Shown here in pieces: positions 59,831-64,000 of a stretch of DNA of 64,000 nucleotides. This DNA is from an uncultured Clostridia bacterium (GTDB lineage Bacteria > Bacillota > Clostridia > Oscillospirales > Acutalibacteraceae): positions 31,708-95,707 of the forward strand of contig CALWVR010000006.1 of NCBI GenBank assembly GCA_944385105.1, written 5' to 3'. The first letter of the stretch is position 1; each line of letters begins with the position of its first letter. Both the position numbers and the translations under genes were made by a program. The notes below the pieces were generated by a model. That model worked only from the letters and a program-made list of their open reading frames with translations, did no database searches and was not told where the DNA came from.

Positions 59831-60425
59831 TGTGTTTATCTTTTGCTATAATAACAAATTTCTATACTATTTGAGGTAATTAGAATAATGTCCGGATGTA
59901 AATTTGGGTAGGAAATAAACACTTTATGTATGAAAGGAAAACTTATATAGAAATTAGCAGTTTGGTATAAATATCTTAACTACATTAATTTGTCTAACAA
60001 TTATTTGGCAGAATATTAAATAAAGTTGACTGTTAAAGCTAGATATTACTTAACTTTGTGTAAATATATTTTTGGGTAAATCTTGATCACTTACGTTATT
60101 GTGAAAAGTATATGGAAATATGGTGGTAATTTTATTATCTTTTAAGAGTGAAGCTTTTTTCACAAAAATCCTTTTTACTTTAGTATCAATTTAGTGAGTG
60201 AAGCAGTATTTTATTTACAGTTCGTTCAATTAGAATACTGTTTTTAAATATAGAGTCGTAAAATCTGCAAGACTTAAACATTGCCTTTTCATCGAGAATA
60301 GGTTTGTACGAAGATTATACAATACTTCCTTGCGCAATCCTAGCTTTTTAAGTACATATCTGCATTAAAAAGGATTTTAATGACAATACTTAATTTGCGT
60401 GCAATTTAATAAGAGGGGGTTTAGT

Positions 60426-61208
60426 ATGATATATAATAAGGTAGAAATCTGTGGAGTTAATACTTCTAAGTTAAAAGTTCTATCCGAAGATGAAAAGATA
60501 AGACTGTTAAAGATAATGAAAGAGGGAAATAGTGAAGAAAAAAAGAAGGCTAGAGAAGATTTAGTTAACGGAAATTTAAAGCTAGTATTGAGCGTTATAC
60601 AAAGGTTTACAAACAGAGGTGAAAATTTAGATGACTTGTTTCAGGTAGGGTGCATAGGCTTAATAAAAGCAATTGATAATTTTGATGTGAGTTTAGATGT
60701 TAAGTTTTCAACGTATGGTGTTCCTATGATAATAGGGGAGATAAGAAGATATTTAAGAGACAATAATTCAATAAGAGTTAGTAGATCTATGAGAGACATA
60801 GCTTATAGAGCAATGCAAATAAAGGAACAAATGATATGTGATAATAATAAAGAACCTACAATTGAAGAGATAGCAAAGAAAATGGAAATAGGAAAGGAAA
60901 CGTTAGTTTTAGCTATGGAGGCTGTAGTTGAGCCAGTTTCTTTATATGAACCTATTTTTTCAGATGGGAATGATACGGTTTATGTTATGGATCAGATTGG
61001 GAATAAAAATGAAGATATAAATTGGATAGACGAAATTGTTTTGAGAGAGTCTATTAAAAATTTAAGCGAAAGAGAAAAAAATATACTATCGTTAAGATTT
61101 TTACAAGGAAAAACACAAATGGAAGTAGCTTCAGAAGTGGGAATAAGTCAGGCGCAGGTTTCTAGACTTGAAAAATGTGCTCTTTATAAAATAAAAGAAC
61201 AATTATAA
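60426..61208 (+). CDS. sigG: RNA polymerase sporulation sigma factor SigG
   Basis: I chose the ATG at 60426 (MIYNKVEICGVNTSKLKVL), which follows AAGAGGGGG; this exact opening is the SigG hallmark. The 260-residue protein has region 2 (NLKLVLSVIQRF, DDLFQVGCIGLIKAIDNFD, KFSTYGVPMIIGEIRRYLRDNNSIRVSRSMRDIAYRA) and region 4 (KTQMEVASEVGISQAQVSRLEK). SigG drives late forespore transcription. It stands alone, without spoIIGA-sigE beside it. Confidence 0.95.
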   Translation: MIYNKVEICGVNTSKLKVLSEDEKIRLLKIMKEGNSEEKKKAREDLVNGNLKLVLSVIQRFTNRGENLDDLFQVGCIGLIKAIDNFDVSLDVKFSTYGVPMIIGEIRRYLRDNNSIRVSRSMRDIAYRAMQIKEQMICDNNKEPTIEEIAKKMEIGKETLVLAMEAVVEPVSLYEPIFSDGNDTVYVMDQIGNKNEDINWIDEIVLRESIKNLSEREKNILSLRFLQGKTQMEVASEVGISQAQVSRLEKCALYKIKEQL

Positions 61209-61210
61209 AA

Positions 61211-61250
61211 AGGTATTCTCCAGGTTATAATCTGGAGAATACCTTTTTTC
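61211..61250 (+). terminator. Terminator of sigG
   Basis: AAAAGGTATTCTCCAG and CTGGAGAATACCTTTT form a perfect 16-bp stem around GTTATAAT with a T run. Confidence 0.9.
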
Positions 61251-61419
61251 TAAATTTTGATGAAAGGTTTTAACGTCTAATTTGCCTGTTAAGATGTGAA
61301 TGGTTATTGAAAGTTAAAATATTTATTTACATGGACTTTATAAGATGCTAAACTTAAATAGCAGAAAAATCTAATAAACACTTAATAATTATATTTTTCT
61401 TAAGGAGAGAGTATTAAAC

Positions 61420-62520
61420 ATGTTGAGACACAAAAAAATTTTCACAATCTTTTTAGTAATTTTAAATTTAGCTTTTTTTGTTTTACCAATAGATTCATAT
61501 GCTAATGAATCAAAAGAAAATTTTTGTGCAAGTGCAAATAAACCAACCGTTGCAGTGCTTACAAGTGGTGGGGATTCTCCTGGAATGAATGCTGTTATTA
61601 GGTCTTTTACAAAGACAGCTATTTCTATGGGTATGAAAGTTATTGGCATTAGGCATGGCTATGAGGGGCTATTAAATAAGGACTTTATTGAATTAAACTT
61701 AGAAACTGTTTCAGGAATAAGTTGTTTAGGTGGAACTATATTACATTCATCCAGAAGTAAGGAGTTTAATACTCCAGAAGGTGTAAAGAAGGCAGCAGCT
61801 ATTTGTAGAGAATATGGCATAAAAGGAATAGCCGTAATAGGAGGGGATGGCTCATTTAGGGGTGCAAGAGACCTTACTAATGCTGGGATTTCCTGCATTG
61901 GAATACCAGGTACTATAGACAATGATATAAAATGCACTGACTATACTATAGGATTTGATACTGCTATCAATACAACTATAGGACTTATAGATAGAGTTAG
62001 GGACACGTCTCGGTCACACGATAGGTGTTTTGTTATAGAAGTAATGGGAATGAATTGTGGAGACATAGCTCTACAAACAGGTCTTGCAAGTGAGGCAAAT
62101 GTTATATTAGTACCTGAGATTGAATATAATTTTCAAGAGGATGTAATTGATAGAATACTAAATGCAAAACTTAATGGTGAAAGCCATTTTATTGTAATAG
62201 TAGGTGAAGGTGTTGGAGGAGTGTCTAAAATAGCAAGGCATTCAACAATAGCAGAACAGATTGAAAAAGAGACTGGTATTGATACAAGATATTTGGTTTT
62301 TGGACATTTACAAAGAGGTGGAGCACCTACGCTAAAGGATAGGGTGATGGCCTCGAAAATGGGAATGCATGCTGCTAGAATTCTAAACGAAGGAAAAGAA
62401 AATAGAGTTATTGCACAAAAAAATGGGGAAATAGTGGACATTGATATTACTGAAGCTTTAAAGATCGACAGACCTTTTGACTATAAGCTATATAGTGATG
62501 CTTTGGTTCTTGGACAATAG
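61420..62520 (+). CDS. pfkA: 6-phosphofructokinase with an apparent Sec signal peptide
   Basis: The 366-residue protein is a PFK catalytic domain of about 325 residues preceded by a 40-residue extension. The extension is a textbook signal peptide: MLRHKK, hydrophobic IFTIFLVILNLAFFVLP, and a cut site SYA-NE near 28. PFK motifs are complete: GGDSPGMN (50-57), AVIGGDGSFRGA, GIPGTIDNDI (catalytic Asp), EVMGMNCGD and FGHLQRGGAP. AGGAGAGAG precedes the ATG and no internal start could give a shorter PFK. Phosphofructokinase is a cytoplasmic glycolytic enzyme, so export is unexpected. I infer that it is either a paralogue with a moonlighting role or membrane-tethered. Confidence 0.85.
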   Translation: MLRHKKIFTIFLVILNLAFFVLPIDSYANESKENFCASANKPTVAVLTSGGDSPGMNAVIRSFTKTAISMGMKVIGIRHGYEGLLNKDFIELNLETVSGISCLGGTILHSSRSKEFNTPEGVKKAAAICREYGIKGIAVIGGDGSFRGARDLTNAGISCIGIPGTIDNDIKCTDYTIGFDTAINTTIGLIDRVRDTSRSHDRCFVIEVMGMNCGDIALQTGLASEANVILVPEIEYNFQEDVIDRILNAKLNGESHFIVIVGEGVGGVSKIARHSTIAEQIEKETGIDTRYLVFGHLQRGGAPTLKDRVMASKMGMHAARILNEGKENRVIAQKNGEIVDIDITEALKIDRPFDYKLYSDALVLGQ

Positions 62521-62726
62521 ATAATATATAGACTATGGGTTTTTCTGCATACAGTTTTTATAAAATTTGCAAATTATTTATGATTAGCTATTAAAAAATA
62601 CATGTAAAGTGGTACTTAACTAATACTATATACTTATATTGACATTTTTTGAAAGAAGATTTTATATTAAAGACTAAAGTTAGTATGATTAAACTTCTAT
62701 ATAGAAAATTCTTTATTATTAAACTT

Positions 62727-62763
62727 AAAGCCTTAGAATTCATTAGAAATTCTAAGGCTTTCT
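62727..62763 (+). terminator. Terminator after the phosphofructokinase gene
   Basis: AAAGCCTTAGAATT and AATTCTAAGGCTTT form a perfect 14-bp stem, followed by CTAATTTAT. The rest of the gap 62521-62905 is AT-rich, with no gene. Confidence 0.85.
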
Positions 62764-62905: not shown

Positions 62906-63712
62906 TTGACCAGTAAAAGTATTACACTAAATGTTTGGAAAGAAAATTCAGAGGTTGTATCAACTGTACAGGGGGAAGTTAATAGCAGGTTTTTGGAGGT
63001 AACTTTATTAGACAACAATGGAGCAATTGATTTAACAGGTAAGTCTGTTAAATTTCAAGCAAAGAAGCCGGATGGACAAGTAATATTTAATGATATGTCA
63101 ATAACGGATGCTAGCAATGGAATTGTGGAGCTTGAGTTAACATCACAAATTTCTGCAGTTCCAGGTATACTTAAAAATTGTGAAATACTTATAATTGATG
63201 AGTCTGGATATACACTTATAGTGAAGGGGATAGATATATATGTAGCACCTTCCTTAGGCGAATCTGTTATAGAGAGTGTTTCAGAATTTACAGGTTATCA
63301 GTTAATGATGAACAAGGTTAATAATATGGAAGTACATTTAAGTGATAAGAATAATCCACACAGTGTAACACCGAACCAGATAAATGCTATAGCTGCTTCT
63401 GAAAAAAATGTTGCAGGAGGTGTAGCGGCACTTAATTCAGAAGGAAAGCTGTCAACTAGTGTTGAAACTGATCCAACAGTGCCATCTTGGGCTAAGGAAG
63501 CTACAAAACCAAGCTATAGTTTCGCGGAGATAGAATCAAAACCTACAACGCTTTTAGGCTATGGAATTACAGATGCAGCTGAGTTATCAGATGTTGGTGA
63601 TGTTGTGAACTTAACAACGGATAGTAAAACTTTGGTAGGAGCAATAAATGAAATAAAAGTTGAATTAGGCGATATTGATACTGTATTGGATAACATAATT
63701 GGAGGAGAATAA
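62906..63712 (+). CDS. BppU-type phage baseplate upper protein
   Basis: The 268-residue protein starts at TTG after TAGGAGGT. The N-terminal about 120 residues read as the immunoglobulin-like BppU domain (SVKFQAKKPDGQVIFNDMSI, EGVVELELTSQISAVPG); the remainder has tail-fibre-like segments (NNPHSVTPNQINA, VGAINEIKVELGDI). Such proteins form the receptor-binding baseplate of Siphoviridae-type phages or tail-like particles. Its context, with a second tail-like gene right after, suggests a tail gene cluster beginning here. Confidence 0.82.
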   Translation: MTSKSITLNVWKENSEVVSTVQGEVNSRFLEVTLLDNNGAIDLTGKSVKFQAKKPDGQVIFNDMSITDASNGIVELELTSQISAVPGILKNCEILIIDESGYTLIVKGIDIYVAPSLGESVIESVSEFTGYQLMMNKVNNMEVHLSDKNNPHSVTPNQINAIAASEKNVAGGVAALNSEGKLSTSVETDPTVPSWAKEATKPSYSFAEIESKPTTLLGYGITDAAELSDVGDVVNLTTDSKTLVGAINEIKVELGDIDTVLDNIIGGE

Positions 63713-63714
63713 GC

Positions 63715-64000
63715 ATGAGCATAGGAAGTCATTTAATAGAGCTAAATAGTATAAAATCGAGTATAAAAACTGCATTGACATTAAAAGGACTTTCACCGAC
63801 AAACGACTTTTCAAGTTATGCTGATTTGATAGAGTCGCTTTCAAATGAGGAAGATGGGATATACAAAATCTTAGCAGGAACAATTAGTGACATAGTTTTT
63901 CCAAGTGGCCTTTCAGAAGTAAGAAATTATTGTTTTTACTATTATCCATTAAACTCAATAGTGTTCCCGGAAGGAGTAACAAAGCTGGGTGGCTATGCAC
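63715..64000 (+). CDS. Partial protein with BspA/LRR-like C-terminal pattern, right edge
   Basis: ATG at 63715, two bases after the previous stop, with GGAGGAG before it. About 95 residues are visible: MSIGSHLIELNSIKSSIKTA, then SFSSYADLIESL, then LAGTISDIVFPSGLSEVRNY and NSIVFPEGVTKLGGYA. The final I-V/P-x-G-V-x-x-L-G-x-Y-A pattern suggests leucine-rich BspA-type repeats beginning at the edge. Probably a phage-tail or surface-binding protein; it continues off the window. Confidence 0.65.
   Translation, partial: MSIGSHLIELNSIKSSIKTALTLKGLSPTNDFSSYADLIESLSNEEDGIYKILAGTISDIVFPSGLSEVRNYCFYYYPLNSIVFPEGVTKLGGYA

Follow-up and report, generated by a model that had tools for sequence, protein, structure and literature searches.

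The 64,000-nucleotide stretch of DNA analysed here (the window), a part of contig C6 in the draft genome of an uncultured Clostridia bacterium (G000; 1.38 Mb in 33 contigs, 99% complete) that ends with the end of that contig, encodes a phosphofructokinase (PFK) with a signal-peptide-like leader, and this gene is a paralogue of the leaderless PFK gene of the same genome. From sequence comparisons we favor, with some reservation, the view that it is a Sec-exported PFK paralogue without the usual allosteric site, which would act at the cell surface or outside the cell. Export as such, be the protein cleaved or tethered afterwards, appears clearly likely.

The protein begins with MLRHKK and a hydrophobic core; PIDSYA and a polar linker follow, and then the PFK domain, which is complete (Table 1). 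This agrees with the description in an earlier note made from the DNA letters alone, in which a 28-residue N-terminus with a charged start, a hydrophobic core and an SYA cut site had been recognized in the open reading frame from the ATG at 61420. The same note had described a PFK of 366 residues with all catalytic motifs. Length and PFK domain were confirmed, but the MGR motif with the arginine corresponding to Arg171 of E. coli PFK (EcoPFK) is not intact, since the leadered PFK has MGM in its place and the ortholog introduced below has MGL. The protein resembles bacterial PfkA (the PFKs of G. stearothermophilus, GstPFK, and E. coli; PF00365, NF002872) over the whole domain, in its fold, in D127 and in most active-site residues. 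It scores 380.8 bits against the NCBIfam model of the ATP-dependent PFK subfamily (NF002872, cut-off 253). In contrast to PfkA, it carries the leader, a six-residue insert and changes at R25, G185, K213 and the MGR arginine, and it stays below the cut-off of the PfkA equivalog model TIGR02482 (371.35 bits) with 353.8 bits (ortholog: 364.1 bits), whereas the leaderless PFK of the same genome passes with 385.7 bits. In the structure predicted with AlphaFold2 from 39 sequences the PFK core is modelled with confidence, residues 2-21 form a helix of low confidence, and a disordered stretch lies between the two; its closest matches in the PDB are chains of GstPFK (TM-score of 0.96 by target length).

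Table 1 Features of the leadered PFK gene and its surroundings in the window (residue numbers of canonical PFK transferred from the GstPFK alignment)
Feature	Position	Strand	Evidence
sigG, a neighbor judged to lie outside the system	60399..61208	+	NF006071 407.6 bits (cut-off 372); below the TIGR02850 cut-off (397.9 vs 457)
Strong terminator-like hairpin between sigG and pfk	61207..61248	+	hairpin scan
Unit homologous to L033 at the DNA level	61315..62549	+	DNA comparison, 81%
Promoter-like site TTTACA-17-TAAACT, TG before second hexamer	61326..61354	+	9/12 match; both hexamers and spacing kept in L033
Shine-Dalgarno sequence AAGGAG	61402..61407	+	6/6 match; same word precedes the L033 start
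Leadered PFK paralogue, 366 aa	61420..62520	+	ORF; PF00365 340.2 bits (cut-off 30.9), residues 44-321; predicted PFK fold, mean pLDDT 87
Signal-peptide-like leader, residues 1-28, predicted cut after SYA	61420..61503	+	rule score 4.76; 21/28 identical in L033; synonymous excess
Polar linker, residues 29-41	61504..61542	+	6/13 identical in L033; low-confidence coil in model
K65 at position of effector-site R25	61612..61614	+	R in 65/65 other rows; K in both leadered copies
M211 at position of MGR arginine R171	62050..62052	+	R in 63, H in 1 and N in 1 of 65; L in L033
E225 at position of G185	62092..62094	+	G in 65/65; E in both leadered copies
E254 at position of K213	62179..62181	+	K in 63 and R in 2 of 65; E in both leadered copies
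Six-residue insert, residues 274-279	62239..62256	+	both leadered copies; 0/65 other rows
Terminator-like hairpin after pfk	62727..62761	+	similar hairpin in L033; similarity block 62694-62757, 74%

The second PFK of the genome lies on contig C16 next to a gene that we read as dnaE, has no leader and is 54% identical to the leadered copy. The earlier note had considered a paralogue and suggested a search for a leaderless pfkA, and this copy bears the suggestion out. It had also suggested a comparison with orthologs, which revealed one protein with the same leader, namely L033 from another uncultured Clostridia bacterium (G124, CALWVF010000032.1; the same genome also appears as G060 and as the public record of L033), which belongs to another genus of the family. 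The two proteins are 85% identical over residues 1-366 and share the promoter-like site, the ribosome binding site and the changes in the effector site; they differ in MGL versus MGM, and their genes have other neighbors.

The leadered PFK is rare. Within 398 genomes of the family the type was found only in G000 (808.9 bits) and G124 (698.8 bits), the next match reaching 434.1 bits. Draws of 394 genomes of the order and 391 of the class, which partly overlap the family draw and cannot have included G124, as it would have matched, returned only G000 (E-value 1e-132), and among 60 genomes comprising G124 and its relatives the only leadered match was G124 itself. Two genomes of the same genus as G000 (G001 and G002) gave one PFK match each, without leader. 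In a tree of 72 PFK sequences the leadered pair forms one clade (support 100/100) on a stem of 0.8 within a poorly resolved group of PFKs of the family (91/80), and the canonical PFKs of G000, G001, G002 and G124 group elsewhere (89/83 for all four, 100/98 for the genus). Between G000 and G124, the leadered PFKs are more similar to each other (core identity 87%, dS 1.0) than are the canonical PFKs (64%, dS 1.55) or the ClpC proteins (76%, dS 2.3). Absence of the leadered gene from G001 and G002 and the different neighbors in G000 and G124 are consistent with a transfer. However, since synonymous sites are near saturation, the closeness of the pair is ambiguous in this respect and slower protein change would also fit, so that a recent transfer between the genera is left open. 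Carriage by phages or plasmids was considered and rejected: 22 pattern-matched stretches in viral contigs do not encode a relative, 36 of the 37 matching phage records stay below 60% identity and the remaining one is a fragment of 75 residues with 62.7%, with none of the matches starting before residue 16; all 79 matching plasmid records are below 60% identity, and the best 5 of the 79 start at residue 32 or later.

Signal-peptide properties were assessed by a home-made rule that considers charge, hydropathy and the residues at positions -3 and -1. A charged n-region, a hydrophobic core and small residues at -3 and -1 are all present according to this rule, with a score of 4.76 and a site after residue 28. 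When residues 2-41 were shuffled 20,000 times, 1.25% of the shuffled sequences satisfied the rule and one attained 4.76; when 20,000 open frames were drawn at random with the composition of intergenic DNA, 2.2% satisfied the rule and the score was again attained once. The window contains 38 ATG-initiated ORFs with 150 aa or more. Three of them satisfy the rule, the leadered PFK with the top score, and we read the other two as a P-type ATPase and a lipoprotein. A search of the G000 genome with 43 amino acids, aimed at a source of the leader, matched only the query itself.

It is very likely that the leader is translated. Among the first 55 codons, ATG, GTG or TTG occur only at codons 1, 2 and 46, and the GTG at codon 46 lacks a Shine-Dalgarno sequence (best match 3/6) and falls, according to the predicted model, within the first beta strand. 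The statement of the earlier note that there is no internal start with a ribosome site could thus be substantiated. AAGGAG stands 12 bases upstream of the ATG at 61420. L033 has an additional GTG at codon 24, i.e. within the leader, also without a ribosome site. In 70 out of 70 other PFK sequences (not counting 11 duplicate loci of a gene and a match to the motif in L026 that arose by chance) a start codon is located 6-14 residues upstream of the SGGD motif, and in both leadered proteins it is absent there; these 70 are the sequences of the family whose N-termini were read, and PFKs with an unrelated leader may exist beyond them. Between the window and L033, the leader accumulated 8.5 changes over 17.7 synonymous sites and 7.5 changes over 63.3 other sites (binomial p of 0.012 with 8 and of 0.003 with 9 of the 16 changes counted as synonymous), a pattern that would be expected of a translated leader under selection. 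The core shows a dN/dS ratio of about 0.08 (0.079 over 1.01), which indicates that the leadered protein is under selection and not decaying.

These results also bear on the idea that the leader is an artefact, be it an assembly fusion, a contamination or an untranslated upstream stretch that resembles a leader. Both genomes are drafts, and the DNA upstream of the pfk gene of L008 also reads hydrophobic, with one TTG start that satisfies the rule at 3.63; AT-rich upstream DNA can therefore mimic a leader. Against a mere mimic stand the lack of a usable internal start, the occurrence of the same leader in L033 and the leaning of the changes toward synonymous sites. An assembly error that fused an unrelated leader, named beforehand as an outcome that would speak against the reading, is not supported because the leader is conserved in a second genus and in a different gene context, and clpC on the contig of the window is 81% identical to that of its genus mates, as fits the host. 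The artefact explanation is thus largely refuted and we regard it as extremely improbable.

In regard to the fate of the protein, the make-up of the leader predicts Sec export. We infer export, cleavage, location and role as follows. A PfkA-type, ATP-dependent PFK paralogue would have gained a Sec signal peptide. Translation would start at the ATG at 61420 from the ribosome binding site at 61402, the charged n-region and the hydrophobic core would guide the chain to the Sec translocon, and signal peptidase I would cut after Ala28, whereupon a PFK with a short N-terminal tail would be released into the cell-wall space or the medium and would fold outside. It would still have the fold of a PFK and a largely unchanged substrate pocket, with an altered effector site (R25K, G185E, K213E) and without the MGR arginine. 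Its job would most likely be extracytoplasmic and free of control by ADP and PEP, probably a binding function at the surface or in released form, similar to what is known from moonlighting PFKs without a leader, while glycolysis would be carried out by the leaderless PFK encoded on C16.

The long hydrophobic core and the single helix of residues 2-21 followed by a flexible stretch in the AlphaFold2 model would also suit an uncleaved signal anchor, by which the exported PFK would be held on the outer side of the membrane. We consider such an anchor unlikely, because SYA is kept in place in both copies while the linker varies (6/13 identical residues, as opposed to 21/28 in the leader). A wall-anchor motif was not seen on inspection of the leadered sequence, which speaks against export. 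It is somewhat less likely still that the leader does not export and that a second PFK remains in the cytosol or at the inner membrane face. In favor of this view, PFK forms a stable tetramer in the cytosol, and the leadered copies have retained most catalytic residues as well as the cysteines, which number seven in the window copy and six in L033, compared to a median of five in 37 leaderless sequences and eight in the canonical copy of the same genome; since fewer cysteines would be expected in an exported protein, these numbers count against export. On the other side, the leader is selected as a protein with its charge, core and cut site kept, the positive charges before the core and the net negative charge after it predict the enzyme to be outside, and in the model the leader helix is set apart from the confident PFK core, which would also speak for export.

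The residues of the enzyme were compared with 65 other sequences, a set from which 8 duplicate entries of genes and 5 distantly related PFKs had been removed. At the positions of R25, G185 and K213, of which we take G185 to be part of the ADP/PEP effector site, both leadered copies carry K, E and E, respectively. For EcoPFK, R21 and R25 are described as critical for the binding of ADP and PEP, and PEP is contacted by K213, according to the available part of the source (PMC12889660). Other effector positions (D59, E187 and R211) are less telling, since many canonical PFKs of the family also differ from GstPFK there, D59 for instance being replaced by G even in the canonical PFK of the same genome. 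The leadered PFK is accordingly best read, from its residues, as a protein that lacks the usual allosteric site. Only two genomes share the changes, which may go back to one ancestral event. Unchanged in the leadered copies are G11, R21, Y41, R72, D103, G104, S105, T125, D127, D129, R154, R162, M169, G170, H215, E222, R243, H249 and R252. This list includes G104, which we take to be the mark of ATP-type PFKs and on which the reading as a PPi-dependent PFK was rejected, and the aspartate that is named as the general base in the accessible part of a PFK review (Asp127; PMC12203962).

The retention of D127, D129, R72, R162, R243, H249 and others, together with the strong selection on the core, points to a further explanation, namely an exported and still catalytic PFK that would be free of allosteric control and would use extracellular sugar phosphates and nucleotides. 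The retained D127 and substrate arginines would fit catalysis better than pure binding, and the substrate pocket may still be in use. However, the position of R171, an arginine that we assume to have a role in PFK, is occupied by M or L, and ATP and fructose 6-phosphate are scarce outside cells. Since ATP is scarce there and R171 is lost, binding is favored over an enzymatic role outside, and we judge the catalytic version improbable. The MGR arginine is not absolutely fixed, as two leaderless PFKs of the family possess MGH and MGN instead (L015 and L020, from the genomes G004 and G014).

A PFK that is proposed to act outside the cell has been described for Streptococcus oralis and Lactococcus lactis, where, in the available part of the source, it is the cytosolic enzyme itself that moonlights at the surface, without a signal peptide (PMC4481411). 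The exported paralogue that we favor differs in being a separate, leadered gene beside a leaderless one. According to the same part of that source, none of 98 surface-moonlighting proteins, two PFKs among them, has a signal peptide, and a later review, as far as accessible, states that the secretion route of surface glycolytic enzymes is not known (PMC6646928). In titles and beginnings of abstracts of the open-licence literature, which is weak evidence limited to such papers, we found no leadered, secreted or surface PFK of this kind, and a term search of the available text of a PFK review from 2025 for 'signal peptide', 'secret-' and 'extracellular' returned nothing (PMC12203962). The route by which glycolytic enzymes arrive at the surface of bacteria is an unsolved problem. 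A PFK encoded for export beside a leaderless copy would, if true, provide a genetic separation of the two roles; deletion of the leadered copy would leave glycolysis intact and allow a direct test of what this copy does outside. It is conceivable, though we put it forward only tentatively, that a duplicated glycolytic gene received a true Sec signal peptide and was freed of cytoplasmic control, so that work outside the cell, in other bacteria a puzzling sideline of the cytosolic enzyme, became the task of a dedicated exported protein.

The position of the gene behind sigG had been taken as a hint at a sporulation link, which the present data do not uphold. Homology to L033 over 61315-62549 and the similar hairpin block behind it show that promoter-like site, gene and terminator-like hairpin are kept while the neighbors differ, and the remaining DNA matches between the window and L033 are short and weak. 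In the window pfk is preceded by sigG and followed by a BppU-like gene. In L033 it is preceded by a signal peptidase I-like gene and followed by a Cache-HAMP-SpoIIE (SpoIIE-type phosphatase) gene. Since the unit is kept among different neighbors, the adjacency of sigG and pfk is most likely incidental. A link through sigG was rejected in view of the terminator-like hairpin between the genes, the promoter-like site of ordinary type that pfk has of its own, and the separate location in G124, where contig C32 carries the leadered pfk and sigG is found in pieces on C4 and C35. In G001 and G002, too, the sole PFK gene and sigG are on different contigs. The promoter scan gave 13 such sites compared to 9.0 expected, so the argument for the site rests on its conservation in L033. 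An RNA element with an Rfam match at gathering scores was not found upstream of pfk.

Some observations concern the surroundings of the gene. The signal peptidase I-like gene of G124 is situated 1.6 kb upstream of the leadered pfk (L033:1133-2392) and encodes a protein of 419 aa with PF10502 at residues 240-410 and a long hydrophobic N-terminal part. Behind the leadered pfk of the window, positions 62906-64000 contain the phage-tail-like gene with a BppU_N domain (PF10651) and then an ORF that appears leucine-rich to us, up to the contig end. The sigG gene of the window stands alone, without spoIIGA and sigE before it; by our reading G124 has both before the 5' part of its sigG, and in the genomes of the same genus as G000 there is no sigE directly beside sigG either.

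The sigG of G124 is split over two contigs, with residues 2-103 on one and residues 85-258 on the other (L093:6296-6610, minus strand, and L092:4897-6806, plus strand). The 3' part follows directly after a gene for a large serine recombinase (PF00239, PF13408, PF07508), and the 5' part continues into genes that we read as phage-like. A word of nine bases, CCGATGATT, is present at both junctions, and a second nine-base word is common to both just inside. Judged from this arrangement, the split resembles the interruption of a forespore sigma gene by a skin-type intervening element, and excision of such an element from a forespore sigG would be inherited. The genes named with such elements in the available part of the source and in listings of open-licence papers are sigK, spsM, spoVFB, gerE and yabG, and sigG is not among them (PMC10747680).
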